Part shown: positions 12,703-37,565 of the stretch, piece after piece | Layout of the letters: each line of letters starts with the position of its first letter | Numbering within the stretch: position 1 is the first letter of the stretch | From: Nyssa sinensis | Taxonomy: Eukaryota > Streptophyta > Magnoliopsida > Cornales > Nyssaceae | Reading direction: 5' to 3' | NCBI GenBank assembly: GCA_008638375.1 | Contig: CM018038.1 | Location: 15,832,515-15,896,514 of the forward strand | Length of the DNA stretch: 64,000 nucleotides | Program-made: the position numbers and the translations under genes | Notes under the pieces: generated by a model | What the model was told of the DNA's origin: nothing | The model's database searches: none | The model's input: the letters and a program-made list of their open reading frames with translations, nothing else

Positions 12703-12786
12703 ACGCCTTTGAAAGGCGTATGAGTTTCCTCCGCCTTTCAAAGGCGTAGGAGTTTCCTCCGCCTTTCAAAGGCGTATGGGTTTCCT
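12703..12786. repeat. Three 28-bp tandem repeats, each a mini-hairpin
   Basis: Three units of pattern (a/c)cgccttt(g/c)aaaggcgta..gtttcct follow head to tail. Each contains the inverted repeat gccttt-N-aaaggc. The outer edge of the giant palindrome's left arm falls inside this array (about 12746), and the right arm ends in the same motif at 37565. Confidence 0.8.
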
Positions 12787-14313
12787 CGGCTTTTGTTGAA
12801 AAAAATTATAGAGGCGTCTTAGATTTAGACGCTTTTCAAAAAGACATGCCTCCAGGAAATAAGTTGAAACTAACCTGGGTCCGAGAAATATATTTTTAAA
12901 TTGCGTGCCTCAGGTCAAAAATTCAGACTTCTGTATTAAAGAGTTAAAATGCCTTAAGCAGTCACACAAATTTAAGTAAAAAATTTATTTGAATTTGATA
13001 TTTTTTAACTGTTCATAAATAATTTATAATTAATGTAAATTTAATTTTATGAATAATATTTTATAGATTTAAATTTAAATTTTAAAAAAATTAATATGAA
13101 TTTGATTGAAAAGATTTTTCTAAAATTTTGATTTAAATTTAAATTTAAATATGAGTTTAATTCTTTTTTTAAATTGTAAGAGAAAGGCAGTTGTTGTTTT
13201 TTAATTTTTTTTATTCATTTTAATCACATGATACTTACAAAAAATATTTATATATACAATAGTGTAGTATGAATAGAATGGATGAGACCTACCGTAAATT
13301 AAAATTTTTTTGTTCAAATTTTATGCTTTTTCTGACTTGTTGATACATGAGACATGAATTTTATGCTCTTTCTCACTTGGGACATAAGATCATTTTGTAT
13401 ATTTTTATGTGAAATTAGTATGAATTAAAAGTTTAAAACGCCTCATGTAAAAAAAAAATATATATATATATATAATTTTTTTTATTATAAATAATAATAA
13501 CACTAACATGTATTTTCACGCGAATACATCTCCACTCCACCACATAGTCCCTTGTCAAGCCTATCATAGAATCCGACCAAAATTGCAACTCATCATCAAC
13601 GATGCCAAATTCACAATTCACGCATCACTGCCAGCCTCCACCGTGACCAGAACCTGTCCAAATATTCAGTGCACCCCCATTGTCTCAAACCCCATTCTGT
13701 TGGCAGCCTTTTGTCTGCAACCCCATGAACCACCATCGGCACCGCCATTCAACACATGACCAAACATCACCCACGCATCATAGCCGCCCACCACCGTAGC
13801 CAGAAAACCACCGATCATCAATTTGCAGGAGAATCGCAGAATGTAGTGAGACTTGTGAATTGCAATTTAAAGAAAGCAACCTAGGGCTGCTTACAAAAAA
13901 TGTGATGCGTGTTGTGGCCTCAATTTTCAGCTTCACACGTTGCCTTCAACAATTTCAAAATCCACACATTTTCAACTTTTCACTTCACGCCCTATATACA
14001 GTATCCACATTTCAAATTGCAAGAATAACCTAAAAAGTCCATCCCATATAAGTAACAATAGTCTACACATTTATGCCTTGGTGCCATTGAGATTATGGAT
14101 TCAAATAAAAAATAATGTATTCTTTATCTATAATCTATACAGAAGTGAGCGTTTCGTTAACCTACTTCATATGCTTCAGTTGCTTCACTATTTAAGAGTT
14201 AGTTTCACAATGGATCTGTAACATGATAAGACATTCTCTAGGTAGTTGTTATACACATTTGTTATAATTTGTTCACCTCACTAGTAATTTGTGCTTTAGC
14301 TGTTCATAGTGGA
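12746..14313. other. Outer flank of left arm, no gene
   Basis: Very AT-rich DNA between the hairpin repeats and the left element, mirrored at 35998-37565. Short frames (for example 13508-13759) lack recognisable domains. It includes an AT dinucleotide run near 13459-13474. It ends in gtgga, the target-site duplication of the element. Confidence 0.7.
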
Positions 14314-15017
14314 TGATGCTGCACTTTTTGGCCCACGTGAGATCCAAGCTCGGCTCCCTGCGAAACACTCGAAACAGAAGATCAGAGGACCACCGGGTTG
14401 GCTCCGGCGGTAGCCGCTCCGATGCTTAAGTCAATAAATTGAATTAAAAGACTCGTAATGAAAGCCAAAATAATGAGCATGAAAATAAAGCGTACCTTTA
14501 GGGTTGAATTTATAGGCAATATCTCTCCTAAGTTGATTAGGATTTGGAGCCATGAATATAGGGATTGGATCTCTGGAGATATCAGTTACCTTGTTGAATA
14601 TGGTAACTCAGTGTGGCAGTTTCCTTGTTGGAGATAGCTTCCTTATTTCCTACTTGGTGCTTACTGAAGCGATGATTAGGTCTGATCATTGATGTGTTGT
14701 ATTGCAAGCTTGCATCTATACAAGTTAGTCTTTATGGGAGAACTGTCTTGCTTTGATACTATGAGCTCGGCCCATGTAGGTTATGCCCTTGACTGACTGA
14801 GGATGAGATGTATGACCGGGCATGTACTAAATGGCCGAACACAGATTATAAGGCCGAACATGAACTAAGCGACTGAGCACAAGTTATGTGGCCGAGCCCG
14901 AGCTGGGCGACCGAACACAAGTTATATGGCCGAGCCTGAGCTCTATTATGGGTCATGAACCGATCTTGCAGTTGCACGTGTCATGCAGTGGTTGGTGTGT
15001 CACATAGTGGTATATCA
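14314..15017 (-). repeat. 3' LTR of left element
   Basis: 704 bp, identical by eye to the right element's 3' LTR (35294-35997). It is preceded by the TSD gtgga and followed, in plus coordinates, by the complement of the polypurine tract (gttactcccccccc). Confidence 0.93.
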
Positions 15018-15223
15018 GTTACTCCCCCCCCAAGCCTTAGTTGGAGCTCGGGGGATAACTAAGGTCTTAAGAGTGCCCGAAAAGTCACGCGTTCTGTCGT
15101 CTCGTTTTCCTAGACGTCCGTTGGTACATCATTTATTGCGCAGCCGGTTTTTGGGTTTCTCAAATCATTATTGTTGCGATACTGTCGTGGCGGTTCGCCT
15201 GGGTAGCCATTATTCTCCGAATG

Positions 15224-15232
15224 TATATAAAA
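15224..15232 (+). promoter_or_regulatory. TATA box for the antisense ORF
   Basis: A tatataaaag-type box lies 198 bp upstream of the antisense ORF's ATG at 15430, just inside the 3' LTR. It faces against gag-pol, so the antisense gene appears to have its own internal promoter. Confidence 0.6.
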
Positions 15233-15429
15233 GGGGGAAAGAGCCTTGTACGACTCTTTTTACCATCTTCTATTTTGCAAAGCGAGATATACATCCGCCA
15301 TTGTCGAACCAGCAAGCTACCTTGTGAAGAATCCCATCCATCCGAAGTCCCTTACTTTGATTCAGGTTCGGTTTTAGTGTTTTCGTTCATCTTTTCACTT
15401 TCTCTTCTTCTCCTTTTGGTTATTTTGAA

Positions 15430-17416
15430 ATGTCGACTTCTTCGGCATCTTCTGATGTTGGTAATGGGTCGGGGAGCCTTCCGGAAGCTCCTTCCTTGTC
15501 ACAAACCCTAATTAGGGGTAGCACTTCCTCGGGGACTGAATCGGAGGAGACTCACTCTAGTCCCTCAGTTAGAATAGTTGATGCCTTCTCGGAGTCTAGG
15601 GATAGAGAGGGTGAAGTCTCGGGTCGGTCTTCTCAGGTAGAGAGTGCTGTAACATCCTCTTGGTTGGAGGTTATTAGGGAGAAGTATGAGATTCCTCCAA
15701 ATGTCACCCTTAGGGCTCCTGAGGACTTCGACTACCCTTGGGAAGTTCAGGATGGGGAAATTTGTGTTTATACCGCTTGGTTTGAGATGGGGTTACGCCT
15801 TCCTTTCCCTAGACTGCTTAGGGATTTTTTCTGTTGGTTCAATCTCTGCCCGGCCGATCTGCTTCTGAACAGTTGGAGGCACCTGTTAGGGTTTATGGCC
15901 CTAGGTCGCCTGAATGGTGTTGAGGTCTCCTTAGACTTGATCCGTAGCAAAATGGATCTTAAATATAGGAAGGCGGAGGGCCTCTACTATATGTCGTTTG
16001 ACAAGGGCTTCCGGCCTTTGACTTTCGTGCCGTCCTCCAATAAATTTTGGAAGGATCGGTTCTTTTTTGTTGGTGGAAAATGGGAGGTGACCGACCCTGA
16101 GGACCAGTTCTCCACGTTCCCCCGGAGCACGGGGTTTATGGGTGAGACACCCTTTTCTTCTGTAATTTTGCTTTGTGCCTGTCCTTTGTGTATCTGACTG
16201 ACCTTTGTTCAAAACTCTTTTATGTAGCCAAGAGCGTCAAGAAGAGGCCGCAATTTACCCCTGTTTTGAAAGACCAATACAAGAGACTCCTCCAGACTTC
16301 AAACCGGGATTACCGAGCCATTCTTCATTCAGGCCCTACAATGCCTCCCAAGGATAAGGGTGTTGTTGACGACGTCCTCAAATCCCTCGCTGGCAAATGG
16401 GGGTCGTCAAAGAAGAAGAGGGTGGCTAGCCAGCCCCCTCCCACTGCGTCTTCTTCGAAGAAGACGAGGACGACCGCCCCTTCCCCATCTGCGCTTCCCA
16501 AGAAGGGGGCGGTCTCCTCTGCTTCTCCCTCTTCCCGACCTCCTCTGCGGGGAGTTGTGATCAGGGAGCCCTCCTCTGCCCCTCAAAAGGGGGTGGTGAT
16601 CGGGGAACCCTCTTCTGCCCCTCAGAGGGGTACGGCGGTTCTTCGGCCTGTCCCCTCTTCGGCCCAAAAATCTCAACAGAGGGGTAAGGCGAAGATGGGT
16701 ACTGACATGCCTGATGGATACAAGGCCGTCCATCAGGCCATTGAAGATTTCTGGGCTGAGGCCCCTTGTACTGACATCCCTTCCTGCAGCACCAGGAAGG
16801 GTACTGAGAAGACTGTGGCCGGTGCCATGAGGGCTCATCTGAAGGTAACGACCGACCTTTCTGCTTTTGTGCTCTTCTTCCTTTTCCTCTTTACTGATAC
16901 GTCTTCTTATTTTTGCAGACCCTCCATAGCTTGGCTGCTTTAATGGAGGCCACGGTGGATCTCCAGGCCGTGGAGAGGTTGGAGGAGGAGCTGGATGAAG
17001 CCAGGCTTCAGCTCGGTACGGCTCAATCTCAAGCCACCACAGCCGAGGACGAGCTGAAGGAGGCGAGGAATTGCTTCTCAATTATGGAATCCGAAAGGGA
17101 TTCTATTAAACTTGAGAGGGATTCTTTGCGATCTGAACGAGACTCCCTTCTTCAGGACCTGACCAAACTGAAGGAGGAGAACAGTGCTCTTCAGTCTTCA
17201 CTTGTTCAGAAGGTTGATGAGGCCAAGGTTGAGACCGAGGCCAGGTTGAAGACCGAGCTTGAGAAGATGGGTGATACTATTGCGCAGCTCGGTTATGATA
17301 ACTTCAAGTCCAAGCTTCTTGCCAAGTACCCGGATATTGACCTGTCTGGGATTGACGACGATGACGAGGACGAGGATGGTGATCAGGACGACGGATCTGC
17401 AAGCCCCTTAGTTTAG
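15430..17416 (+). CDS. Antisense ORF of Tat element (spliced, 608 aa)
   Basis: Three exons, 15430-16141, 16228-16844 and 16919-17416, have clean GT/AG sites and join in phase (712+617+498 bp) to 608 aa plus stop. The N-terminal part carries FEMGLRLPFPRLLRDFFCWF and then a block with LCPADLLLNSWRHLLGFMAL. This resembles the 'putative gypsy type transposon' family (Pfam Transposase_28) found antisense in Tat elements. The middle is rich in Ser, Pro and basic residues. The last exon is a long Glu/Lys coiled coil (ERDSIKLERDSLRSERDSLL) with an acidic DDDDEDEDGDQDD tail. Its role in the element is unknown. It runs convergently towards pol, with the minisatellite between. Its protein is identical to the right-arm copy. 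Confidence 0.8.
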
Positions 17417-18039
17417 GGAAAACTTTTGTAGTCCTGTTTCATCTTTTTGTAACCGAGCTCAAATATTAATGAAAATATCTTCTCTTCAGTTTTTGTCTCT
17501 ATCTTTCTTTGATTGTTGGCAATCTTTGAATTCTGTTCTAAATATGTATCAATGTTTTGTGGTGTATGAACGGACTTCGGCCTTTGAGGCTTGTATCATG
17601 ACCCAAGTAAACCTGCTCGGAACCTAGAGTATTGTTTTTACCGACCATGGGTTGTCTCCAGAACTAACTTATGGCAATCCTGAAGTAATGTGTAGTAATA
17701 ACCAACTTATGCCGAACTCTTGGTATTGGAGGGGTTTTTGAATCATGGATTTTCTTTAAGAAAGATGACTTGAATAATAATTAATCAATCTGATCTCTGA
17801 TTAACAGTCGTAGAAACTGGTACAAGACAGTTACTCTGATCTTTTAGAGTAGGAACCTGAGCTTGATCGCCGAACTGAGCGACTTGTATTTGTAAGGATT
17901 TTTTTGATGGTCAGTGTGACTGAGCATTTAGAGTTATCCTCGCCTGTTTATAACTGCCGGCACCTAGTTTCGTGTTCTTGCAATAGAACATCATCCTTAT
18001 ATATCAAGATAGATCAGACTTAGGGATTTTGTTTATTAA

Positions 18040-18680
18040 GATGGAACAGACCTGAGGTCTGTGCATTGAAACGTACCAGACCTGAAGTCTGTACATTAAG
18101 ATGGACCAGACCTGAAGTCTGTACATTGAAATGGACCAGACCTAAGCCTGTGCATTAAGATGGACCAGACCTGAAGTCTGTACATTGAGATGGACCAGAC
18201 TTATAGTCTGTGCATTGAGATGGACCAGACCTGAAGTCTGTACATTGAAATGGACCAGACCTGAGCCTGTGCATTAAGATGGACCAGACCTGAGAGGTCT
18301 GTACATTGAGATGGACCAGACTTATAGTCTGTGCATTAAGATGGACCAGACCTGAGAGGTCTGTACATTGAGATGGACCAGACTTATAGTCTGTGCATTG
18401 AGATGGACCAGACCTGAAGTCTGTACATTGAAATGGACCAGACTTATAGTCTGTGCATTGAGATGGACCAGACCTGAAGTCTGTACATTGAAATGGACCA
18501 GACCTGAGCCTGTGCATTAAGATGGACCAGACCTGAGAGGTCTGTACATTGAGATGGACCAGACTTATAGTCTGTGCATTAAGATGGACCAGACCTGAGA
18601 GGTCTGTACATTGAAATGGACCAGACCTGAGCCTGTGCATTAAGATGGACCAGACCTGAGAGGTCTGTACATTGAGATGT
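18040..18680. repeat. Hairpin minisatellite (about 21 units of about 30 bp), left copy
   Basis: Units of pattern atggaccagacctgaagtct-gtacattga repeat head to tail. Two alternating flavours (gtacattga and gtgcattRag) give a roughly 60-bp higher-order period. Most units have their own short palindrome (cagacct..aggtctg or cagact-ata-agtctg). Arrays between pol and the 3' end are known from Tat/Ogre-type elements. The 211-aa frame crossing it is a by-product of the repeat. Confidence 0.9.
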
Positions 18681-18714
18681 TTCACGAAAGATGTTGAAAT
18701 AAAAAGAAAGTACT

Positions 18715-21536
18715 TTATTGATAATATTTTCGCAAATGTTCCATGTTCCAAGGCCTGGGAACAGGTTTCCCATTCATGCTTTCCAACCAATAAGTGGTCG
18801 GTCTAACTGTTTTGATAATTCTGTAGGGGCCTTCCCAGTTCGGTGATAACTTCCCCATGGTGGGGTCCTTGGTGTTCTGGAAAACCCTTCTTAGGACGAG
18901 GTCCCCAACTTGGAAATTGGTAGGTTTGAGGCCAATTTTTGAGCGGTTAACCATCCTGCGCTGATATGCTTCCATTCTGATTACGGCCTGCTCTCTTCTT
19001 TCTTCGAGCAAATCCAAATTTTCTGCTAGTTGTTGGTCATTGGTCTCTTCGTTGAAAGCCTCAGCCCTTAAGGTCGGCATGCCGACCTCAACAGGGATTA
19101 CTGCCTCAGTTCCGTAGGCTAGGGAGAAGGGAGTTTCCGATGTTGGAGTTCTCCTGGTTGTCCGGTAGGCCCAGAGTGCCCCAGGGAGTTCCTCGACCCA
19201 TCCCCCTTTAGCTTCCTCTAATCTTTTCTTGAGAGCGTCGAGGATAGTTCGGTTGGTGACCTCGGCCTGCCCGTTGGCCTGAGGATGACCAGGGGAGGAA
19301 AAGTGCTGTTTGATGTTTAGGTCCTGGCAGAATTTCTTGAATATTTTCCCAGTGAACTGCGTGCCATTATCTGAGACGATCACATGAGGTATGCCGAACC
19401 TGCAGACTATATTTTTCCAAGTAAAACTCTTTATCTCTTTTTCAGTGATGCGAGTCAGTGGTTCTGCTTCGGCCCATTTTGAAAAGTAGTCAACAGCCAC
19501 CAATAGGTATCTCCTGTTCGGCTTGGCTTTAGGTAATGGTCCTATGATGTCCATTCCCCACTGTGCAAAGGGCCATGGGCTAGTAATGGGGATGAGCTCA
19601 TGTTGCAGCTGATGCTGATAAGGGGCGAACCTTTGGCATTTGTCACACTTTCGAGTATATTCCTTTGCTTCCTTCAGCATCCCAGGCCAGTAGTAGCCTT
19701 GGGTTAGAGCTCGGTGGGCTATGGTTCTCCCCCCATTGTGATTTCCACAGATTCCTTCATGGATTTCTGCCAAGACATATTGAGACTCTTCAGGTGCTAG
19801 GCATTTTAACAATGGCTGGGTGTAAGACCTTCGGTAGAGTTTTCCGTTAAGGACAAGATACCGAGCTGCTCTGATGCGGATTCTTTTTGCCTTATTTCTG
19901 TCCTCTAGGAGGAGTCCCTCCTCCAGGTACTGGAGTATAGGAGTCATCCAGCTCTGAGGCTGTTCCGTGACTTGGGCGACCTGGATCTCCTCGGTGCTAG
20001 GCCTTGGCTGGTGAGAGAACTTTATCGTTGACTCCACCCCCGTTTTCATGTGAGATGCCATGTTTGCTAAGGCATCGGCTCGGCTGTTCTGTCCTCTTTC
20101 TATTTTTTGGATTGAGAATGCTCGAAAGGAATGTTTTAGCAAGTTGACTAGTTCCGAATATCGGAGCATTCTTTCATCCTTGATGGCATATTCTCCTTGA
20201 ACCTGGCTAACCACCAGTTGGGAGTCAGAAAATACCTCGAGGCTCTGTACCTCGCACTCCTGAGCTAGCTTCATTCCTAAGATAAGGGCCTCATATTCCG
20301 CTTCGTTGTTGGAGGCTCTGAACCCCAAGCTAATTGCCCTTTCGGTTGTAAGTCCATCAGGAGAGTGTAGTACTAGCCCTGCTCCGGCACCTCGGTCAGT
20401 GGATGATCCATCAGCATACAACTTCCAAGTCCCCACCTCGTCTGAGACTTGAGCTTTGCCTAGCAGCGCGGGAGTGAATTCTGCGATGAAGTCTGCCAAG
20501 GCTTGCCCTTTAATTGAGACTCGTGGAATGTAGGACAAATCGAACTCCCCCAGTTCCACTGACCACTTGACCAACCGTCCTGATACTTCTGGTTTTCTTA
20601 GGACTGCTTTCAGTGGGTAGGCAGTCGGAATTTCTATGGGATGTGCTTGGAAGTATGGTCTCAGCTTCCGTGCAGAAACTATGAGAGCAAGGGCTAGCTT
20701 CTCAATTTCGGGGTACCTCTTTTCTGTGTCTAGTAATGCCTTGCTGACATAGAAGATGGGCCTCTGCACGCTCCTGTCTTGCCTAACCAGTACCGAACTG
20801 ACAGCGTTCTCAGAGACTGCGAGATAGAGAAGCAGCCTTTCTCCTTGGATTGGTTTTGATAAGAGCTCGGGCGAAGCCAAGTATCTTTTGAGTTCCTGAA
20901 AGGATTTTTCACACTCGTCAGTCCATTGCAAAGATTTGTTACCTTTCAGAGCCTCGAAGAAGGGTAGACACCGATCCGTGGATTTGGAGATGAATCTGCT
21001 GAGAGCTGCTATCCGGCCGTTCAGAGCTTGAATGTCCTTTCGGGCCTTTGGGGATTTCAGTCCGATCAGAGCCCCGATCTGAGTCGGGTCTGCTTCTATA
21101 CCTCTTTGAGAGACTATGTACCCAAGGAACTTCCCTTTTGTTACACCAAAGGTGCACTTTGAGGGATTGAGCTTCATTTTATATTGTCTGAGGATATCGA
21201 AGGTTTGCGCTAGGTGTTGGAGATGACTGCTCTTCCTTAGGCTCTTGACCAGCATATCGTCAGGTCGGGATCTATCCCTTCCATGTCGCTTGTCTCCCAG
21301 GCAAATACGGAGAGGTTTTTCTTTAAAAACTTGACCAGCTCATCCTGCTCGGTATGTGTCAGGTCGGGACCTATCTGCAGGTAACGTCCCTGATCCTCTG
21401 AGCTGACCAGGATTTTAATAGGCTCCCCTATAGGCTTGGCTCTACTATCCCTTCCTCTGGGGCTCAATGGTTCTTCAATTTTGGAGGGACAGTCTTCTGC
21501 CTCGTGACAGCAAGGGTAGATTGCATCCTTGCACAC
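18715..21536 (-). pseudogene. Left-arm pol, inactivated by 502-bp RT deletion
   Basis: On the minus strand 99 codons (21237-21536) match the start of pol. The frame then shifts at about 21,255, and the rest (18715-21255, 846 aa) resumes in another frame at MLVKSLRKSS. Compared with the right copy, 502 bp are missing between gatcccgacctga and cgatatgctgg, with a shared 'ga' at the joint. The lost part holds the RT fingers and palm up to the catalytic YIDD. The downstream RNase H domains and integrase are open and differ from the right copy by one residue (L versus P near 19,909). The deletion is not a multiple of three, so no full polyprotein can be made. Confidence 0.9.
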
Positions 21537-21554
21537 ACGGGCGTGCAGTAATTG

Positions 21555-23834
21555 CTATTTGGGGGCCTTAGCTTTGAGTGCGAGGGCGTGGCACTCTCGG
21601 GAGGTCGGTTGGCATCCTCTGATGGAGTAGACTGTCTGATTGTGAACGTATTTTAAGCATTGGTGGAGGGTTGAGGTGACCGCTCCCATCTCATGTAGCC
21701 AGGGCCTTCCAACTATGACGTTGTAGGGAGATTTGGCTTTTATGACCATGTACTCGGCTATCGTGGTCTTCTGTCCGTCCCCTTCACCCGCAGTGGTGGC
21801 CAGATCGACCCTTCCTAGTGGAGTGTTAGTGTTTCCATCAAAGCCCGTCATGATTATGCTCGTGGGCTTAATGTTATTGGGGTCGAGCTTCATATGCTTG
21901 AAAGGGTCGTAGAACAGTACATTGGTCGAACAGCCAGTGTCGACGAGAACTCTCCGGATATCGAAGTTGGCGATCTTAAGGGAGATAACCAGGGCGTCGC
22001 TGTGAGGACAATGTACTCCCCTAAGGTCGTGATCCGTGAATTGGATTTCCGGCAAGGGCTTTAACCTTTTTTCCACGTTAGCGACCTGCATGATGTTGGG
22101 AGCAGACCTGGCCTCCCGAGCGTATCGTTTTCTTGACCTGTTAGAGGTTCCTGTTGCAGGGGAATCTGCGTGTAGGACATAGATCACCTGATTGTTCTGT
22201 GGGGGTTCGTTCCTGCCTCCTTTCTGCTCCTGCCTCTGGTCGGTTTTTCTCTGCTGGGGTCGTTCGTCACGGGGGTTCTGTCCTCCGTCCTGCTTGACGA
22301 ACTCCTGCAGCCTTCCTCTCCTTATTAGCTGCTCAATCTCATGCTTGAGAGCTTTGCAGGTATTGGTGGTGTGCCCTCGGTCTTTGTGAAAGTCACAATA
22401 TTTGGTCTGATCTCGATAGCTGGGGTCTCCTTTCAAAGGCTCCGGCCATCTCATATTTTCTCGAGATCTTACTTGCTTCAGTATGTTGTACGGAGAGGCG
22501 TTTAGAGGAGTGAAATGGTTGAATTCCCTTAGTCCAGAATTGAAGGAGGTTCTGGGGGCCCCCCTTTTTTCTGGGCTCCTGACTCTCTTCCTGGCCGAGC
22601 TGGTGTCCTTCTTTTGACTATCTTTCTTGTGATCGTCTTTCTGAGCTTGTTCTTTGACCTTTCTAGAGGTGTCCCTGGCCTCCTCCAGGTTGATGTACTT
22701 CCTTGCACGGTCCATGAGTGCTGCCATGTCCGCAGGGGGACTTTTGGTCAGGGAGTCTCTAAACCCTCCTTGAGCAAGTCCAGCGGCTAGAGCAGCCACT
22801 AGGAAACCGGGGCTGCAATCTGTTACCTCAGTGAGCTCGGCGTTAAAGCGTGCTATATACCCCCTGAGCGATTCTTCCCTCGTTTGCTTTATGTTCAGAA
22901 GGAATTCCGGACCCTTTCTTAGCCTCCTGCTAGTCATGAATCTGTCCAAGAACCTTCTGCCGAGCTCATAAAAGCCAGATACTGAGTTCGGCGGGAGGTG
23001 GTGGAACCACTTTAGGGCGGTACCATTGAGGCTGGTTACGAACGTTCTGCATAAGAAGGCATCAGAAGCGCCGTGCAAAGCCATGGTGTGCTGGTAGTGG
23101 GAGAGGTGGTCCTCCGGGTCCCCAGTCCCATCATAAGGGGTGAATTTAGGGACGATAAATTTCTTGGGTCTTTCCTCGGCCATGACAGCATTGGTGAACG
23201 GGGTGGCCGACCTCCCGAGCAATCTGGCCAGCTCGTCCTGTTCTGGATACTGGGCACCCCTTATGATAGCAGTACGGTCTATTGATTCAGCAACTTCCTC
23301 GGCTCTTACTGACCCTCTTGGTAGAACAGGTTGCTGCGAGGCAGGTCTCACGGCCTCAGGGCCTATATGGGTAGGCTGATCTTGGCCCGCTACTGGGGGG
23401 TTGTTCTGATTCTCTGGTACTGGTGGTACAGGAACTACTCGAGGAGGTGATCCTTGTGGAATGTAGTTTACTCCCGAGGCCCCCGGGACGGGGGGTCGGG
23501 TAGTACTTCGATAATGGACCTCCGGGACAAAGGCGGGAATCCCTCGACCGGCTGCCGACGACGGTTGGGGGTCTATATGAACACCGGCGGCCGCAGGAGG
23601 CTGCTGCTGTTGAGTGACAACGGGTGGATTTTGAGGATTGGTTTCATGGTTCTGGGTGAACATTGCCAGGGTCCTGGTCATGGTTACAAGCTGTTCCCGT
23701 AGCAACTGGTTCTGCCGCCTAGTTTCGATTAGTTCTTCCTGTGCAGGGTTATTCACTCGCCCTCTTCCTCGTCCAGCAGTTGGTTGAGGATGAGGGTTTT
23801 GAGTGTTATTCCTGGGTCGCAAGTTGGGAGCCAT
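21555..23834 (-). CDS. gag-protease of left element (759 aa)
   Basis: An open frame from the ATG at 23834 (MAPNLRPRNNTQ). It has a Gln/Pro-rich N-terminus, a retrotransposon gag domain (around LKWFHHLPPNSVSGFYELGR), a knuckle of pattern C-x2-H-x4-H-x4-C and an aspartic protease (VLVDTGCSTNV). It ends at TAG, followed in element orientation by CAATTA (see the right copy). Relative to the right copy it has about ten substitutions and lacks one Arg codon (RNEPPQ versus RNEPPRQ), far more change than in the outer half of the arm. Confidence 0.88.
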   Translation of the reverse strand: MAPNLRPRNNTQNPHPQPTAGRGRGRVNNPAQEELIETRRQNQLLREQLVTMTRTLAMFTQNHETNPQNPPVVTQQQQPPAAAGVHIDPQPSSAAGRGIPAFVPEVHYRSTTRPPVPGASGVNYIPQGSPPRVVPVPPVPENQNNPPVAGQDQPTHIGPEAVRPASQQPVLPRGSVRAEEVAESIDRTAIIRGAQYPEQDELARLLGRSATPFTNAVMAEERPKKFIVPKFTPYDGTGDPEDHLSHYQHTMALHGASDAFLCRTFVTSLNGTALKWFHHLPPNSVSGFYELGRRFLDRFMTSRRLRKGPEFLLNIKQTREESLRGYIARFNAELTEVTDCSPGFLVAALAAGLAQGGFRDSLTKSPPADMAALMDRARKYINLEEARDTSRKVKEQAQKDDHKKDSQKKDTSSARKRVRSPEKRGAPRTSFNSGLREFNHFTPLNASPYNILKQVRSRENMRWPEPLKGDPSYRDQTKYCDFHKDRGHTTNTCKALKHEIEQLIRRGRLQEFVKQDGGQNPRDERPQQRKTDQRQEQKGGRNEPPQNNQVIYVLHADSPATGTSNRSRKRYAREARSAPNIMQVANVEKRLKPLPEIQFTDHDLRGVHCPHSDALVISLKIANFDIRRVLVDTGCSTNVLFYDPFKHMKLDPNNIKPTSIIMTGFDGNTNTPLGRVDLATTAGEGDGQKTTIAEYMVIKAKSPYNVIVGRPWLHEMGAVTSTLHQCLKYVHNQTVYSIRGCQPTSRECHALALKAKAPK

Positions 23835-23892
23835 AATCCCTCTGATAGACGAAAGATGAGCTTAGATTGAGTAGAGCACTTGGTGATTGTCG

Positions 23893-23910
23893 TTCCCACA
23901 GACGGCGCCA
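23893..23910 (-). other. Primer binding site, left element
   Basis: In element orientation tggcgccgtctgtggga lies 3 bp after the 5' LTR. The first nine bases resemble the PBS used by other Tat/Athila elements (end of a tRNA with ...GGCGCCA, possibly tRNA-Asp). The tRNA assignment is inference. Confidence 0.65.
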
Positions 23911-23913
23911 AAC

Positions 23914-24617
23914 TGATGCTGCACTTTTTGGCCCACGTGAGATCCAAGCTCGGCTCCCTGCGAAACACTCGAAACAGAAGATCAGAGGACCACCGGGTTG
24001 GCTCCGGCGGTAGCCGCTCCGATGCTTAAGTCAATAAATTGAATTGAAAGATTCGTAATGAAAGCCAAAATAATGAGCATGAAAATAAAGCGTACCTTTA
24101 GGGTTGATTTTATAGGCAATATCTCTCCTAAGTTGATTAGGATTTGGAGCCATGAATATAGGGATTGGATCTCTGGAGATATCAGTTACCTTGTTGAATA
24201 TGGTAACTTAGTGTGGCAGTTTCCTTGTTGGAGATAGCTTCCTTATTTCCTACTTGGTGCTTACTGAAGCGATGAATAGGTCTGATCATTGATGTGTTGT
24301 ATTGCAAGCTTGCATCTATACAAGTTAGTCTTTATGGGAAAACTGTCTTGCTTTGATACTGTGAGCTCGGCCCATGTAGGTTATGCCCTTGACTGACTGA
24401 GGATGAGATGTATGACCGAGCATGTACTAAATGGCCGAACACGGATTATAAGGCCGAACATGAACTAAGCGACCGAGCACAAGTTATGTGGCCGAGCCCG
24501 AGCTGGGCGACCGAACACCAGTTATATGGCCGAGCCTGAGCTCTATTATGGGTCATGAACCGATCTTGCGGTTGCACGTGTCATGCAGTGGTTGGTGTGT
24601 CACATAGTGGTATATCA
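23914..24617 (-). repeat. 5' LTR of left element
   Basis: 704 bp. It differs from the left 3' LTR at 12 sites, about ten of them private to this LTR among the four. It is followed in plus coordinates by the TSD gtgga. Confidence 0.93.
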
Positions 24618-25912: not shown

Positions 25913-25971
25913 ACGACAATCACCAAGTGCTCTACTCAATCTAAGCTCATCTTTCGTCTATTAGAGGGATT

Positions 25972-28254: not shown

Positions 28255-28260
28255 CAATTA
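28252..28260 (+). promoter_or_regulatory. Leaky stop: TAG CAA TTA between protease and RT
   Basis: The gag-protease frame stops at TAG and is followed in the same frame by CAATTA, then opens into pol. UAG-CAA-UUA fits the UAG-CAR-YYA consensus of tobamovirus replicase readthrough in plants. Both arms keep it unchanged (left copy near 21,549-21,557 on the minus strand). That readthrough occurs is inference. Confidence 0.75.
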
Positions 28261-28272
28261 CTGCACGCCCGT

Positions 28273-31200
28273 GTGTGCAAGGATGCAATCTACCCTTGCT
28301 GTCACGAGGCAGAAGACTGTCCCTCCAAAATTGAAGAACCATTGAGCCCCAGAGGAAGGGATAGCAGAGCCAAGCCTATAGGGGAGCCTATTAAAGTCCT
28401 GGTCAGCTCAGAGGATCAGGGACGTTACCTGCAGATAGGTCCCGACCTGACGCATGCCGAGCAGGATGAGCTGGTCAAGTTTTTGAAGAAAAACCTCTCC
28501 GTATTTGCCTGGGAGACAAGCGACATGGAAGGGATAGATCCCGACCTGATCACGCACAGACTAATGGTGGATCCAGATCATCCACCAATGAGACAAAAGA
28601 GAAGGCCTCTCGCTCCAGAACGGCATCAGGTCATCAACGACGAGGTTCAAAGGTTGCTCAACGCCAACATGATACGAGAGGTATCTTATCCTGATTGGTT
28701 GGCCAACACTGTTCTGGTCAAAAAGAAGAATGGTAAATGGAGAGTCTGTGTCGACTACACAGATCTCAACAAAGCATGCCCAAAGGATAGCTTCCCTCTT
28801 CCACGAATAGATCAGTTAGTCGATGCAACTGCAGGGCACGAGCTCATGAGCTTCATGGATGCTTATTCTGGGTACAATCAAATACAGATGCATCCTCCCG
28901 ATCAAGAGAAGACTTCATTCATCACCGAACGAGGTCTCTATTGCTACAAAGTGATGCCGTTCGGACTAAAGAATGCTGGAGCTACCTACCAACGTCTTGT
29001 TAATAAGATGTTCGGCTCCTTGATCGGCAGCACTATGGAAGTTTATATCGACGATATGCTGGTCAAGAGCCTAAGGAAGAGCAGTCATCTCCAACACCTA
29101 GCGCAAACCTTCGATATCCTCAGACAATATAAAATGAAGCTTAATCCCTCAAAGTGCACCTTTGGTGTAACAAAAGGGAAGTTCCTTGGGTACATAGTCT
29201 CTCAAAGAGGTATAGAAGCAGACCCGACTCAGATCGGGGCTCTGATCGGACTGAAATCCCCAAAGGCCCGAAAGGACATTCAAGCTCTGAACGGCCGGAT
29301 AGCAGCTCTCAGCAGATTCATCTCCAAATCCACGGATCGGTGTCTACCCTTCTTCGAGGCTCTGAAAGGTAACAAATCTTTGCAATGGACTGACGAGTGT
29401 GAAAAATCCTTTCAGGAACTCAAAAGATACTTGGCTTCGCCCGAGCTCTTATCAAAACCAATCCAAGGAGAAAGGCTGCTTCTCTATCTCGCAGTCTCTG
29501 AGAACGCTGTCAGTTCGGTACTGGTTAGGCAAGACAGGAGCGTGCAGAGGCCCATCTTCTATGTCAGCAAGGCATTACTAGACACAGAAAAGAGGTACCC
29601 CGAAATTGAGAAGCTAGCCCTTGCTCTCATAGTTTCTGCACGGAAGCTGAGACCATACTTCCAAGCACATCCCATAGAAATTCCGACTGCCTACCCACTG
29701 AAAGCAGTCCTAAGAAAACCAGAAGTATCAGGACGGTTGGTCAAGTGGTCAGTGGAACTGGGGGAGTTCGATTTGTCCTACATTCCACGAGTCTCAATTA
29801 AAGGGCAAGCCTTGGCAGACTTCATCGCAGAATTCACTCCCGCGCTGCTAGGCAAAGCTCAAGTCTCAGACGAGGTGGGGACTTGGAAGTTGTATGCTGA
29901 TGGATCATCCACTGACCGAGGTGCCGGAGCAGGGCTAGTACTACACTCTCCTGATGGACTTACAACCGAAAGGGCAATTAGCTTGGGGTTCAGAGCCTCC
30001 AACAACGAAGCGGAATATGAGGCCCTTATCTTAGGAATGAAGCTAGCTCAGGAGTGCGAGGTACAGAGCCTCGAGGTATTTTCTGACTCCCAACTGGTGG
30101 TTAGCCAGGTTCAAGGAGAATATGCCATCAAGGATGAAAGAATGCTCCGATATTCGGAACTAGTCAACTTGCTAAAACATTCCTTTCGAGCATTCTCAAT
30201 CCAAAAAATAGAAAGAGGACAGAACAGCCGAGCCGATGCCTTAGCAAACATGGCATCTCACATGAAAACGGGGGTGGAGTCAACGATAAAGTTCTCTCAC
30301 CAGCCAAGGCCTAGCACCGAGGAGATCCAGGTCGCCCAAGTCACAGAACAGCCTCAGAGCTGGATGACTCCTATACTCCAGTACCTGGAGGAGGGACTCC
30401 TCCCAGAGGACAGAAATAAGGCAAAAAGAATCCGCATCAGAGCAGCTCGGTATCTTGTCCTTAACGGAAAACTCTACCGAAGGTCTTACACCCAGCCATT
30501 GTTAAAATGCCTAGCACCTGAAGAGTCTCAATATGTCTTGGCAGAAATCCATGAAGGAATCTGTGGAAATCACAATGGGGGGAGAACCATAGCCCACCGA
30601 GCTCTAACCCAAGGCTACTACTGGCCTGGGATGCTGAAGGAAGCAAAGGAATATACTCGAAAGTGTGACAAATGCCAAAGGTTCGCCCCTTATCAGCATC
30701 AGCTGCAACATGAGCTCATCCCCATTACTAGCCCATGGCCCTTTGCACAGTGGGGAATGGACATCATAGGACCATTACCTAAAGCCAAGCCGAACAGGAG
30801 ATACCTATTGGTGGCTGTTGACTACTTTTCAAAATGGGCCGAAGCAGAACCACTGACTCGCATCACTGAAAAAGAGATAAAGAGTTTTACTTGGAAAAAT
30901 ATAGTCTGCAGGTTCGGCATACCTCATGTGATCGTCTCAGATAATGGCACGCAGTTCACTGGGAAAATATTCAAGAAATTCTGCCAGGACCTAAACATCA
31001 AACAGCACTTTTCCTCCCCTGGTCATCCTCAGGCCAACGGGCAGGCCGAGGTCACCAACCGAACTATCCTCGACGCTCTCAAGAAAAGATTAGAGGAAGC
31101 TAAAGGGGGATGGGTCGAGGAACTCCCTGGGGCACTCTGGGCCTACCGGACAACCAGGAGAACTCCAACATCGGAAACTCCCTTCTCCCTAGCCTACGGA

Positions 31201-31596
31201 ACTGAGGCAGTAATCCCTGTTGAGGTCGGCATGCCGACCTTAAGGGCTGAGGCTTTCAACGAAGAGACCAATGACCAACAACTAGCAGAAAATTTGGATT
31301 TGCTCGAAGAAAGAAGAGAGCAGGCCGTAATCAGAATGGAAGCATATCAGCGCAGGATGGTTAACCGCTCAAAAATTGGCCTCAAACCTACCAATTTCCA
31401 AGTTGGGGACCTCGTCCTAAGAAGGGTTTTCCAGAACACCAAGGACCCCACCATGGGGAAGTTATCACCGAACTGGGAAGGCCCCTACAGAATTATCAAA
31501 ACAGTTAGACCGACCACTTATTGGTTGGAAAGCATGAATGGGAAACCTGTTCCCAGGCCTTGGAACATGGAACATTTGCGAAAATATTATCAATAA
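28273..31596 (+). CDS. pol of right element: RT, RNase H, archaeal-type RNase H, integrase (1,107 aa from first Met)
   Basis: In frame with gag across a single TAG; 28273 is only the first Met and translation probably enters by readthrough. RT (about 95-300) includes NGKWRVCVDYTDLNKACPKD and the catalytic Y258-IDDM. A first, degenerate RNase H follows (LYLAVSENAVSSVLVRQD... about 385-500). A second RNase H of archaeal type follows (D543 in LYADGSSTDRG, then SNNEAEYEALILGM and FSDSQLVVSQ), the Tat-lineage hallmark. Integrase has the zinc region (HNGGRTIAHRAL...CDKCQRF) and D830, D890, E926 with DD35E spacing (MDIIGP, SDNGTQFTG, GQAEVTNR). No chromodomain is evident at the end. It appears intact. 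Confidence 0.93.
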   Translation: MCKDAIYPCCHEAEDCPSKIEEPLSPRGRDSRAKPIGEPIKVLVSSEDQGRYLQIGPDLTHAEQDELVKFLKKNLSVFAWETSDMEGIDPDLITHRLMVDPDHPPMRQKRRPLAPERHQVINDEVQRLLNANMIREVSYPDWLANTVLVKKKNGKWRVCVDYTDLNKACPKDSFPLPRIDQLVDATAGHELMSFMDAYSGYNQIQMHPPDQEKTSFITERGLYCYKVMPFGLKNAGATYQRLVNKMFGSLIGSTMEVYIDDMLVKSLRKSSHLQHLAQTFDILRQYKMKLNPSKCTFGVTKGKFLGYIVSQRGIEADPTQIGALIGLKSPKARKDIQALNGRIAALSRFISKSTDRCLPFFEALKGNKSLQWTDECEKSFQELKRYLASPELLSKPIQGERLLLYLAVSENAVSSVLVRQDRSVQRPIFYVSKALLDTEKRYPEIEKLALALIVSARKLRPYFQAHPIEIPTAYPLKAVLRKPEVSGRLVKWSVELGEFDLSYIPRVSIKGQALADFIAEFTPALLGKAQVSDEVGTWKLYADGSSTDRGAGAGLVLHSPDGLTTERAISLGFRASNNEAEYEALILGMKLAQECEVQSLEVFSDSQLVVSQVQGEYAIKDERMLRYSELVNLLKHSFRAFSIQKIERGQNSRADALANMASHMKTGVESTIKFSHQPRPSTEEIQVAQVTEQPQSWMTPILQYLEEGLLPEDRNKAKRIRIRAARYLVLNGKLYRRSYTQPLLKCLAPEESQYVLAEIHEGICGNHNGGRTIAHRALTQGYYWPGMLKEAKEYTRKCDKCQRFAPYQHQLQHELIPITSPWPFAQWGMDIIGPLPKAKPNRRYLLVAVDYFSKWAEAEPLTRITEKEIKSFTWKNIVCRFGIPHVIVSDNGTQFTGKIFKKFCQDLNIKQHFSSPGHPQANGQAEVTNRTILDALKKRLEEAKGGWVEELPGALWAYRTTRRTPTSETPFSLAYGTEAVIPVEVGMPTLRAEAFNEETNDQQLAENLDLLEERREQAVIRMEAYQRRMVNRSKIGLKPTNFQVGDLVLRRVFQNTKDPTMGKLSPNWEGPYRIIKTVRPTTYWLESMNGKPVPRPWNMEHLRKYYQ

Positions 31597-31630
31597 AGTA
31601 CTTTCTTTTTATTTCAACATCTTTCGTGAA

Positions 31631-32271
31631 ACATCTCAATGTACAGACCTCTCAGGTCTGGTCCATCTTAATGCACAGGCTCAGGTCTGGTCCATTTCAA
31701 TGTACAGACCTCTCAGGTCTGGTCCATCTTAATGCACAGACTATAAGTCTGGTCCATCTCAATGTACAGACCTCTCAGGTCTGGTCCATCTTAATGCACA
31801 GGCTCAGGTCTGGTCCATTTCAATGTACAGACTTCAGGTCTGGTCCATCTCAATGCACAGACTATAAGTCTGGTCCATTTCAATGTACAGACTTCAGGTC
31901 TGGTCCATCTCAATGCACAGACTATAAGTCTGGTCCATCTCAATGTACAGACCTCTCAGGTCTGGTCCATCTTAATGCACAGACTATAAGTCTGGTCCAT
32001 CTCAATGTACAGACCTCTCAGGTCTGGTCCATCTTAATGCACAGGCTCAGGTCTGGTCCATTTCAATGTACAGACTTCAGGTCTGGTCCATCTCAATGCA
32101 CAGACTATAAGTCTGGTCCATCTCAATGTACAGACTTCAGGTCTGGTCCATCTTAATGCACAGGCTTAGGTCTGGTCCATTTCAATGTACAGACTTCAGG
32201 TCTGGTCCATCTTAATGTACAGACTTCAGGTCTGGTACGTTTCAATGCACAGACCTCAGGTCTGTTCCATC
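31631..32271. repeat. Hairpin minisatellite, right copy
   Basis: Mirror image of 18040-18680, with the same number and order of unit variants by eye. It begins just after the pol stop. Most units contain a short palindrome such as cagacctctcaggtctg. Confidence 0.9.
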
Positions 32272-32894
32272 TTAATAAACAAAATCCCTAAGTCTGATCT
32301 ATCTTGATATATAAGGATGATGTTCTATTGCAAGAACACGAAACTAGGTGCCGGCAGTTATAAACAGGCGAGGATAACTCTAAATGCTCAGTCACACTGA
32401 CCATCAAAAAAATCCTTACAAATACAAGTCGCTCAGTTCGGCGATCAAGCTCAGGTTCCTACTCTAAAAGATCAGAGTAACTGTCTTGTACCAGTTTCTA
32501 CGACTGTTAATCAGAGATCAGATTGATTAATTATTATTCAAGTCATCTTTCTTAAAGAAAATCCATGATTCAAAAACCCCTCCAATACCAAGAGTTCGGC
32601 ATAAGTTGGTTATTACTACACATTACTTCAGGATTGCCATAAGTTAGTTCTGGAGACAACCCATGGTCGGTAAAAACAATACTCTAGGTTCCGAGCAGGT
32701 TTACTTGGGTCATGATACAAGCCTCAAAGGCCGAAGTCCGTTCATACACCACAAAACATTGATACATATTTAGAACAGAATTCAAAGATTGCCAACAATC
32801 AAAGAAAGATAGAGACAAAAACTGAAGAGAAGATATTTTCATTAATATTTGAGCTCGGTTACAAAAAGATGAAACAGGACTACAAAAGTTTTCC

Positions 32895-34881
32895 CTAAAC
32901 TAAGGGGCTTGCAGATCCGTCGTCCTGATCACCATCCTCGTCCTCGTCATCATCGTCAATCCCAGACAGGTCAATATCCGGGTACTTGGCAAGAAGCTTG
33001 GACTTGAAGTTATCATAACCGAGCTGCGCAATAGTATCACCCATCTTCTCAAGCTCGGTCTTCAACCTGGCCTCGGTCTCAACCTTGGCCTCATCAACCT
33101 TCTGAACAAGTGAAGACTGAAGAGCACTGTTCTCCTCCTTCAGTTTGGTCAGGTCCTGAAGAAGGGAGTCTCGTTCAGATCGCAAAGAATCCCTCTCAAG
33201 TTTAATAGAATCCCTTTCGGATTCCATAATTGAGAAGCAATTCCTCGCCTCCTTCAGCTCGTCCTCGGCTGTGGTGGCTTGAGATTGAGCCGTACCGAGC
33301 TGAAGCCTGGCTTCATCCAGCTCCTCCTCCAACCTCTCCACGGCCTGGAGATCCACCGTGGCCTCCATTAAAGCAGCCAAGCTATGGAGGGTCTGCAAAA
33401 ATAAGAAGACGTATCAGTAAAGAGGAAAAGGAAGAAGAGCACAAAAGCAGAAAGGTCGGTCGTTACCTTCAGATGAGCCCTCATGGCACCGGCCACAGTC
33501 TTCTCAGTACCCTTCCTGGTGCTGCAGGAAGGGATGTCAGTACAAGGGGCCTCAGCCCAGAAATCTTCAATGGCCTGATGGACGGCCTTGTATCCATCAG
33601 GCATGTCAGTACCCATCTTCGCCTTACCCCTCTGTTGAGATTTTTGGGCCGAAGAGGGGACAGGCCGAAGAACCGCCGTACCCCTCTGAGGGGCAGAAGA
33701 GGGTTCCCCGATCACCACCCCCTTTTGAGGGGCAGAGGAGGGCTCCCTGATCACAACTCCCCGCAGAGGAGGTCGGGAAGAGGGAGAAGCAGAGGAGACC
33801 GCCCCCTTCTTGGGAAGCGCAGATGGGGAAGGGGCGGTCGTCCTCGTCTTCTTCGAAGAAGACGCAGTGGGAGGGGGCTGGCTAGCCACCCTCTTCTTCT
33901 TTGACGACCCCCATTTGCCAGCGAGGGATTTGAGGACGTCGTCAACAACACCCTTATCCTTGGGAGGCATTGTAGGGCCTGAATGAAGAATGGCTCGGTA
34001 ATCCCGGTTTGAAGTCTGGAGGAGTCTCTTGTATTGGTCTTTCAAAACAGGGGTAAATTGCGGCCTCTTCTTGACGCTCTTGGCTACATAAAAGAGTTTT
34101 GAACAAAGGTCAGTCAGATACACAAAGGACAGGCACAAAGCAAAATTACAGAAGAAAAGGGTGTCTCACCCATAAACCCCGTGCTCCGGGGGAACGTGGA
34201 GAACTGGTCCTCAGGGTCGGTCACCTCCCATTTTCCACCAACAAAAAAGAACCGATCCTTCCAAAATTTATTGGAGGACGGCACGAAAGTCAAAGGCCGG
34301 AAGCCCTTGTCAAACGACATATAGTAGAGGCCCTCCGCCTTCCTATATTTAAGATCCATTTTGCTACGGATCAAGTCTAAGGAGACCTCAACACCATTCA
34401 GGCGACCTAGGGCCATAAACCCTAACAGGTGCCTCCAACTGTTCAGAAGCAGATCGGCCGGGCAGAGATTGAACCAACAGAAAAAATCCCTAAGCAGTCT
34501 AGGGAAAGGAAGGCGTAACCCCATCTCAAACCAAGCGGTATAAACACAAATTTCCCCATCCTGAACTTCCCAAGGGTAGTCGAAGTCCTCAGGAGCCCTA
34601 AGGGTGACATTTGGAGGAATCTCATACTTCTCCCTAATAACCTCCAACCAAGAGGATGTTACAGCACTCTCTACCTGAGAAGACCGACCCGAGACTTCAC
34701 CCTCTCTATCCCTAGACTCCGAGAAGGCATCAACTATTCTAACTGAGGGACTAGAGTGAGTCTCCTCCGATTCAGTCCCCGAGGAAGTGCTACCCCTAAT
34801 TAGGGTTTGTGACAAGGAAGGAGCTTCCGGAAGGCTCCCCGACCCATTACCAACATCAGAAGATGCCGAAGAAGTCGACAT
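32895..34881 (-). CDS. Antisense ORF of right element (spliced, 608 aa)
   Basis: Mirror of the left antisense gene: exons 34170-34881, 33467-34083 and 32895-33392 on the minus strand. The predicted protein is identical to the left copy. It has a Transposase_28-like N-terminal half, a Ser/Pro/Lys-rich middle, then a coiled coil with an acidic tail. Its TATA box is at 35079-35087. It runs tail-to-tail against pol, so both transcripts would read towards the minisatellite between them. Function unknown. Confidence 0.8.
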
Positions 34882-35078
34882 TTCAAAATAACCAAAAGGA
34901 GAAGAAGAGAAAGTGAAAAGATGAACGAAAACACTAAAACCGAACCTGAATCAAAGTAAGGGACTTCGGATGGATGGGATTCTTCACAAGGTAGCTTGCT
35001 GGTTCGACAATGGCGGATGTATATCTCGCTTTGCAAAATAGAAGATGGTAAAAAGAGTCGTACAAGGCTCTTTCCCCC

Positions 35079-35087
35079 TTTTATATA
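35079..35087 (-). promoter_or_regulatory. TATA box for right antisense ORF
   Basis: Mirror of 15224-15232; a ttttatata block on the plus strand, 198 bp upstream of the minus-strand ATG at 34881. Confidence 0.6.
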
Positions 35088-35279
35088 CATTCGGAGAATA
35101 ATGGCTACCCAGGCGAACCGCCACGACAGTATCGCAACAATAATGATTTGAGAAACCCAAAAACCGGCTGCGCAATAAATGATGTACCAACGGACGTCTA
35201 GGAAAACGAGACGACAGAACGCGTGACTTTTCGGGCACTCTTAAGACCTTAGTTATCCCCCGAGCTCCAACTAAGGCTT

Positions 35280-35293
35280 GGGGGGGGAGTAAC
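35280..35293 (+). other. Polypurine tract of right element
   Basis: Eight G followed by agtaac immediately before the 3' LTR; mirrored at 15018-15031 in the left element. It is the expected plus-strand primer site. Confidence 0.7.
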
Positions 35294-35997
35294 TGATATA
35301 CCACTATGTGACACACCAACCACTGCATGACACGTGCAACTGCAAGATCGGTTCATGACCCATAATAGAGCTCAGGCTCGGCCATATAACTTGTGTTCGG
35401 TCGCCCAGCTCGGGCTCGGCCACATAACTTGTGCTCAGTCGCTTAGTTCATGTTCGGCCTTATAATCTGTGTTCGGCCATTTAGTACATGCCCGGTCATA
35501 CATCTCATCCTCAGTCAGTCAAGGGCATAACCTACATGGGCCGAGCTCATAGTATCAAAGCAAGACAGTTCTCCCATAAAGACTAACTTGTATAGATGCA
35601 AGCTTGCAATACAACACATCAATGATCAGACCTAATCATCGCTTCAGTAAGCACCAAGTAGGAAATAAGGAAGCTATCTCCAACAAGGAAACTGCCACAC
35701 TGAGTTACCATATTCAACAAGGTAACTGATATCTCCAGAGATCCAATCCCTATATTCATGGCTCCAAATCCTAATCAACTTAGGAGAGATATTGCCTATA
35801 AATTCAACCCTAAAGGTACGCTTTATTTTCATGCTCATTATTTTGGCTTTCATTACGAGTCTTTTAATTCAATTTATTGACTTAAGCATCGGAGCGGCTA
35901 CCGCCGGAGCCAACCCGGTGGTCCTCTGATCTTCTGTTTCGAGTGTTTCGCAGGGAGCCGAGCTTGGATCTCACGTGGGCCAAAAAGTGCAGCATCA
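35294..35997 (+). repeat. 3' LTR of right element
   Basis: 704 bp, starting tgatatacc and ending gcagcatca, followed by the TSD tccac. Identical by eye to the left 3' LTR. Confidence 0.93.
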
Positions 35998-37565
35998 TCC
36001 ACTATGAACAGCTAAAGCACAAATTACTAGTGAGGTGAACAAATTATAACAAATGTGTATAACAACTACCTAGAGAATGTCTTATCATGTTACAGATCCA
36101 TTGTGAAACTAACTCTTAAATAGTGAAGCAACTGAAGCATATGAAGTAGGTTAACGAAACGCTCACTTCTGTATAGATTATAGATAAAGAATACATTATT
36201 TTTTATTTGAATCCATAATCTCAATGGCACCAAGGCATAAATGTGTAGACTATTGTTACTTATATGGGATGGACTTTTTAGGTTATTCTTGCAATTTGAA
36301 ATGTGGATACTGTATATAGGGCGTGAAGTGAAAAGTTGAAAATGTGTGGATTTTGAAATTGTTGAAGGCAACGTGTGAAGCTGAAAATTGAGGCCACAAC
36401 ACGCATCACATTTTTTGTAAGCAGCCCTAGGTTGCTTTCTTTAAATTGCAATTCACAAGTCTCACTACATTCTGCGATTCTCCTGCAAATTGATGATCGG
36501 TGGTTTTCTGGCTACGGTGGTGGGCGGCTATGATGCGTGGGTGATGTTTGGTCATGTGTTGAATGGCGGTGCCGATGGTGGTTCATGGGGTTGCAGACAA
36601 AAGGCTGCCAACAGAATGGGGTTTGAGACAATGGGGGTGCACTGAATATTTGGACAGGTTCTGGTCACGGTGGAGGCTGGCAGTGATGCGTGAATTGTGA
36701 ATTTGGCATCGTTGATGATGAGTTGCAATTTTGGTCGGATTCTATGATAGGCTTGACAAGGGACTATGTGGTGGAGTGGAGATGTATTCGCGTGAAAATA
36801 CATGTTAGTGTTATTATTATTTATAATAAAAAAAATTATATATATATATATATATTTTTTTTACATGAGGCGTTTTAAACTTTTAATTCATACTAATTTC
36901 ACATAAAAATATACAAAATGATCTTATGTCCCAAGTGAGAAAGAGCATAAAATTCATGTCTCATGTATCAACAAGTCAGAAAAAGCATAAAATTTGAACA
37001 AAAAAATTTTAATTTACGGTAGGTCTCATCCATTCTATTCATACTACACTATTGTATATATAAATATTTTTTGTAAGTATCATGTGATTAAAATGAATAA
37101 AAAAAATTAAAAAACAACAACTGCCTTTCTCTTACAATTTAAAAAAAGAATTAAACTCATATTTAAATTTAAATTTAAATCAAAATTTTAGAAAAATCTT
37201 TTCAATCAAATTCATATTAATTTTTTTAAAATTTAAATTTAAATCTATAAAATATTATTCATAAAATTAAATTTACATTAATTATAAATTATTTATGAAC
37301 AGTTAAAAAATATCAAATTCAAATAAATTTTTTACTTAAATTTGTGTGACTGCTTAAGGCATTTTAACTCTTTAATACAGAAGTCTGAATTTTTGACCTG
37401 AGGCACGCAATTTAAAAATATATTTCTCGGACCCAGGTTAGTTTCAACTTATTTCCTGGAGGCATGTCTTTTTGAAAAGCGTCTAAATCTAAGACGCCTC
37501 TATAATTTTTTTCAACAAAAGCCGAGGAAACCCATACGCCTTTGAAAGGCGGAGGAAACTCATAC
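35998..37565. other. Outer flank of right arm, no gene
   Basis: Mirror of 12746-14313. AT-rich, no recognisable gene; short frames only. Confidence 0.7.

Follow-up and report, generated by a model that had tools for sequence, protein, structure and literature searches.

How a palindrome of almost 25 kb comes to stand in plant DNA, and whether it is real, is the question raised by a stretch of 64,000 nucleotides from Nyssa sinensis (assembly GCA_008638375.1, contig CM018038.1; C16:15832515-15896514 in our searches), called the window in the following. An earlier note on this DNA had described two reverse-complementary arms of about 12 kb around a 294-bp spacer. Using the window together with the whole genome sequence (1,000,968,657 bases in 211 contigs), we compared the arms with each other, read their joints and traced the origin of their differences. 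Our preferred reading, to which we give a probability of about 0.7, is that the palindrome is a real and young inverted duplication made by replication switching its template at short homologies.

Two arms around one duplicated insertion

Aligning the window to its own reverse complement confirmed the geometry, with a left arm at 12746-24755 (plus strand), a spacer of 294 bp at 24756-25049 and a right arm at 25050-37565 (minus strand). An origin by chance is excluded by length alone. The arms are unevenly alike: the outer parts (12746-21261 vs. 29050-37565, minus strand) show 6 mismatches in 8516 bp (0.07%), and the inner parts (21260-24755 vs. 25050-28549) show 54 mismatches and 2 gaps in 3500 bp (1.5%). 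One of the six outer mismatches, at 12749, falls in tandem repeats of 28 bp, and whether it counts as a mismatch is a matter of the unit chosen for the alignment. The indels of 502, 3 and 1 bp that had been noted keep their sizes in a base-by-base comparison, and every one consists of bases absent from the left arm. The "set of substitutions" mentioned along with them is also present and comprises 60 sites, but these are clustered, with 54 of the 60 lying between 21260 and 24617, within a retrotransposon.

From outside to inside, each arm is composed of the terminal 179 bp of a transposon that we call X, about 1.4 kb of host DNA, a Ty3/gypsy retrotransposon and, at the spacer, 133 bp of a repeat that we call Y (136 bp when counted from 24620, as in our searches). 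The flanks of the retrotransposon had been described as single-copy-looking, which holds for 12925-13746 but not for the outermost 179 bp, the end of X, nor for the 136 bp by the spacer, an interspersed repeat. With the first 1001 bp of the arm as query, 53 matches were listed (best 40 of 653 candidates scored); among these, 12925-13746 had no close copy outside the palindrome, the other matches being one of 71% over 193 bp and two short low-complexity self-matches. The host DNA between X and the retrotransposon occupies 12925-14308 (plus strand), and from about 14125 inward it is the far side of repeat Y.

The left retrotransposon (14309-24622, minus strand) has long terminal repeats (LTRs) at 14314-15017 and 23914-24617, and the right one (25183-36002, plus strand) has them at 25188-25891 and 35294-35997. 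Between the 704-bp LTRs, Pfam searches found gag, reverse transcriptase, two RNase H-type and integrase domains in this order, which together with a 5-bp target-site duplication (TSD) places the element in Ty3/gypsy; we take it to be Tat-like. The open reading frames (ORFs) of the right copy span 25945-28254 and 28255-31596. Because the 5' ends face the centre of the palindrome in both arms, the LTRs of both elements point outward. The TSD GTGGA, read on the minus strand in the right arm, is found at four of four ends, and therefore a single insertion was duplicated. The arms are inverted copies of one locus, this earlier insertion with its shared TSD included, as would be left by fold-back or by template switching.

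No host gene was recognised in the arms, where the Pfam matches in 10 ORFs (unspliced, at least 110 aa) were retrotransposon domains or sub-threshold coiled coils, and no Rfam match was found in the window. We see no function for the palindrome itself and regard it as a scar; a role in supplying hairpin RNA that would act on its retrotransposon family is unlikely. Inside the retrotransposon, downstream of pol, lies a 645-bp array of 30/60-bp tandem repeats (18035-18679 and 31632-32276). Beyond this array there are antisense ORFs, one of them with a sub-threshold Transposase_28 match.

The joints and a possible course of events

What do the ends of the arms join? The left end lies in X, a Mutator-like element of 21.6 kb that spans -8712 to 12924 in window coordinates, so that its right part (1-12924, minus strand) is in the window. 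The terminal inverted repeats of X are 83% alike across 247 bp, and a 10-bp TSD, AGACTTCTGT, is identical beyond both ends; Mutator-like elements have TSDs of 8-11 bp. Two further copies of X are also flanked by 10-bp duplications of their own. The transposase ORF of X falls outside the window; in locus L009 (5980-8595) an 871-aa ORF carries MULE transposase, DBD_Tnp_Mut and SWIM domains. Long terminal inverted repeats, a 10-bp TSD and a MULE transposase together identify X as Mutator-like. ORFs of X with a plant mobile domain (PMD) were found by Pfam at 8001-9730 on the minus strand. They lie on the strand opposite to the 871-aa transposase ORF, as a PMD gene carried by a Mutator-like transposon. 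We rejected the idea that X starts at the palindrome edge, as 12924 is its end and the body of the element extends leftward from there. The terminal 179 bp in the left arm (12746-12924, plus strand) are contiguous with the remainder of X, and at the outer end of the right arm (37387-37565, minus strand) only these final 179 bp are found. As assembled, the left arm runs on into undisturbed X, whereas the right arm holds the tip only.

At the centre, the spacer together with the right inner flank (query 24746-25185, best 40 of 732 candidates scored) was found as one piece in 39 of 39 other scored places, with 74-83% identity, and the two are therefore native neighbours. Left of 24746, repeat Y continues with sequence absent from the window in all seven copies that were read with their flanks. 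The border between left arm and spacer is therefore a new joint, and our initial reading that Y starts at 24746 had to be given up. Five of the seven copies also extend past the retrotransposon insertion point into right-arm host DNA at 36000-36186, the mirror of about 14125-14311. At this joint, J1 (24746-24755), the left arm meets repeat Y with TGGTATATTG, the reverse complement of 25050-25059. In the present sequence this is a perfect inverted microhomology of 10/10 bp, with a rough chance of 1.6e-5 for a flush 10-bp match. A single spacer natively contiguous with one arm and an inverted microhomology at the spacer edge are both what fold-back or template switching would leave.

The right end, J2, lies at a hairpin-forming miniature inverted-repeat transposable element (MITE) at 37562-37728 (plus strand), recognised by its fold and by alignments to other genomic copies and belonging to the right-hand flank. 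Its predicted fold has -70.3 kcal/mol, compared with a shuffled mean of -17.0 (z -19.2), and the alignments of the family mostly begin at 37562 and finish near 37728. Homology to X runs to 37565 and homology to the MITE begins at 37562, so that J2 as aligned fuses the X tip to the MITE with an overlap of about 4 bp, ATAC (37562-37565). By its symmetry the MITE would be expected to reach about 37557, and the X tip has apparently taken the place of its outermost bases. A later insertion of the MITE into a finished joint was rejected, since its left end is overlapped by X sequence and no matching TSD was seen by eye.

A mechanism can be proposed from these joints. X and one Ty3/gypsy retrotransposon, the latter inside repeat Y, were already in place, as their TSDs attest. 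Replication from the X side may have reached TGGTATATTG in Y and jumped to the opposite strand at the inverted 10-mer 294 bp ahead, copying back through the spacer, the inner flank, the retrotransposon and the host DNA into the X tip. The new end would then have left X in the 28-bp repeats and joined the outer few base pairs of the MITE by about 4 bp of homology, at the joint that is seen today. If the template was switched in this way, X should be intact on the left and the spacer should continue into the right arm; both were observed.

A spacer contiguous with the right arm and edged by inverted microhomology could also point to fold-back after a double-strand break, followed by a breakage-fusion-bridge cycle. 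Here the right arm would be the template and the resected Y end would have folded on the 10-mer; the two-armed chromosome would later have broken in the right-hand X and joined the MITE flank, with the left X as a copy or as the retained arm. The human cases in the accessible text of PMC3907307 look the same in this respect, with 2-8 bp of inverted microhomology at 13 sequenced junctions, and the accessible text of PMC10164571 describes spaced inverted repeats that fold back in single-stranded DNA in yeast. However, this course requires a dicentric intermediate and a second break that happens to hit the right-hand X, and a simple local fold-back with the left arm as template would orient the spacer the opposite way. 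We consider fold-back rather unlikely here. It and template switching are one known kind of event.

Several features lie just beyond the right end. The first of two GRDP-like gene units begins directly beside the MITE; the units (38638-45686 and 48732-55874, with C2_GRDP and GRDP_C domains) form a tandem gene duplication of about 10 kb per unit and are 77-87% identical. The stretch left of the second unit, 45500-48661, showed no link to the arms except two overlapping 20-bp TA-repeat matches. Another inverted-repeat element, a weaker one, is found at 38147-38436 (67% to its own reverse complement).

A patch from another lineage and the age of the palindrome

Why are the inner arms so much less alike than the outer ones? 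When the left inner segment (22600-24619) was used as query, two copies on contig C17 ranked first after the segment itself and its mirror partner came twentieth (best 40 of 7837 candidates scored). We cut out 30 loci, of which two are the window itself, and aligned the other 28. At the 54 sites where the inner arms differ, L027 and L028, the C17 copies, agree with the left arm at 50, with the right arm at 3 and with neither at 1, and 16 left letters are exclusive to these two among the 28 copies. The copy L037 on contig C4 has the right letter at 47 of the sites and the left letter at 7, the right lineage being seen only through loci fetched with the left-segment query. BLAST gave 14 mismatches between the left segment and each C17 copy, and 14 between the right segment and L037; in the multiple alignment, left and L027 differ at 17/3360 sites, right and L037 at 15/3359, and left and right at 54/3360. 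L027 (C17:34812567-34814586) and L028 (C17:30258305-30260324) lie 4.5 Mb apart, differ from each other at 8/3360 sites and form a lineage of their own.

The LTRs tell which of the two types is original. Seven LTR sites distinguish L027 from L037, and at all seven both outer LTRs carry the right letter; the element that first inserted was thus of the right type, and it is the inner part on the left that is foreign. At 24209 the outer and the right inner LTRs have a C in common, which neither the left inner LTR nor any of the 28 other copies shows. By letter sharing and alignments, a patch of 3.36 kb from the C17 lineage occupies 21262-24617 (minus strand) of the left retrotransposon.

The outer border of the patch is a switch point at 21260-21262, where 502 bp are gone from the left arm alone; the right arm still has them, at about 28549-29050. 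On the outer side of this deletion (19140-21259) the C4 copy shows 9 mismatches and the C17 copy 26, whereas on its inner side (21262-21632 of the left arm) the counts are 7 and 1, respectively. As the pattern flips across the deletion, the change of lineage falls at the deletion. All 28 other copies continue into the 502 bp (for 157-160 bp within the fetched loci, and completely in two copies that were read further), and the deletion is therefore the left arm's own. Its joint has a microhomology of 0-2 bp. The left retrotransposon may thus have been broken and patched from a family member of the C17 lineage, either later or during the event itself; the inner end of the patch would have stayed within the element, as in synthesis-dependent repair, and the other end would have been closed by end joining with the loss of 502 bp.

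On this evidence, most of the divergence between the arms was imported from another retrotransposon lineage, and its unevenness does not reflect age. We rejected arm divergence as a clock on the lineage letters and the LTR comparisons. Taken at face value, 0.07% in the outer and 1.5% in the inner arms would also fit an old palindrome whose outer 8.5 kb were homogenised by arm-to-arm gene conversion, as on sex chromosomes, and whose inner 3.5 kb keep the true age. However, the left and right inner LTRs are 13 sites apart, while the right inner and outer LTRs, which belong to one insertion, differ by only 5, and the inner arms therefore cannot predate an insertion that is common to both. The letters of the left inner arm belong to another lineage, and the mismatch counts at the switch point contradict this idea as well. 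No genes kept alike by arm-to-arm conversion were found in either arm, and the only clear tract of conversion has an ectopic source. We regard an old, homogenised palindrome as highly improbable.

Plant substitution rates are 7e-9 to 1.3e-8 per site per year. From 6 differences in 8516 bp, the duplication would be about 27-50 thousand years old, and from the 5 LTR differences of the right element its insertion would date to about 0.27-0.5 million years ago, both values resting on few events and carrying a wide error. For three outer differences the ancestral letter could be told: the left arm has changed at one of them and the right arm at two.

Real locus, composite assembly and known systems

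Could the palindrome have been made by the assembly? Arms of 12 kb that each hold a 10-kb repeat are hard to assemble, and haplotypes or copies wrongly joined head to head might supply one or both arms. Small contigs that resemble second versions exist, which would suit such a composite. In our matches, C118:22100-22536 and C9:12196203-12196639 have equal scores and C127 and C22 are likewise the same or nearly so; these small contigs are perhaps leftover haplotypes. Yet the matches listed from the 211 contigs included no second close copy for 12925-13746, for the spacer (best 40 of 732 candidates scored) or for 37729-37960, apart from a match of 37729-37799 to the beginning of the second unit in the tandem gene duplication, at 48662. 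The left inner segment and its partner are of different lineages, and with 14 mismatches to each of L027 and L028 the left segment was not pasted from those loci. Moreover, the lineage switch coincides with a deletion unseen in 28 other copies, both J1 and J2 show microhomology and the flanks are distinct. A limited search found no literature on palindrome artefacts of long-read assembly. We therefore think a composite quite unlikely. The earlier note had argued from the indels and substitutions against a trivially duplicated read and had kept a partly artificial structure in view. The former argument is strengthened, since inner arms of different lineages cannot be explained by a folded or duplicated read; the latter now appears less likely. 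That note offered no mechanism and missed the intact X on the left only, the spacer native to the right arm and the microhomologies at the joints.

Several points weigh against template switching in a real locus. In other Y copies the site that pairs with the 10-mer on the inner side mostly deviates at several bases, and before the event the homology at J1 may have fallen short of 10 bp or contained mismatches. The overlap at J2 is short (4 bp), the alignment of one MITE copy begins as early as 37552, and it is from the symmetry of the element that a MITE end is deduced to be missing. On its inner side the patch ends somewhere within 24570-24617, near the LTR end, which leaves little homology for an invading end. 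No palindrome-free relative or second haplotype of the locus was found in the assembly. Finally, the palindrome is known from assembled sequence, and template switching and fold-back give nearly one product.

It is tempting to assign the MITE an active part. Its hairpin, or its transposase, might have broken or stalled replication, and repair via the X tip, the retrotransposon and Y would have made the 24.8-kb palindrome in one event, followed by the ectopic patch; MITE-rich plant genomes would then repeat such events, and double-stranded RNA against the retrotransposon family could follow. We consider this extended scenario doubtful.

The kind of event is known; what sets this locus apart is how easily its joints can be read. 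Provided that it is real, this natural example from a plant lets one read from the sequence both new joints, which arm served as template, in what order the elements inserted and where an ectopic repair tract came in later. It would also offer a testable case for microhomology-driven inverted duplication beside MITEs, and a caution against dating palindromes by raw arm divergence.

Human large inverted duplications, as far as they are described in the accessible text of Hermetz et al. 2014 (PMC3907307), likewise have two inverted arms, a spacer contiguous with one of them and short inverted homology at the spacer edge. In contrast to the present 12-kb arms, which are interstitial and in a plant, with a spacer of 294 bp and a homology of 10 bp, they reach megabases, occur in patients and come with terminal deletions or translocations. 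The palindromes of the willow W chromosome, in the parts of PMC7023750 at hand, are also from a plant, span tens of kilobases, hold LTR retrotransposons with identical TSDs in their arms and show an arm indel of about 500 bp. Their arms contain genes and undergo arm-to-arm conversion, whereas conversion in Nyssa appears to be ectopic, from the lineage of another chromosome. Mu killer of maize, according to the portions of PMC3440606 available, is an inverted duplication that involves Mutator-type termini, as is the case here. Mu killer, however, duplicates transposase sequence and makes a hairpin RNA, while the palindrome in Nyssa holds 179 bp of X and a Ty3/gypsy element with outward-pointing LTRs.

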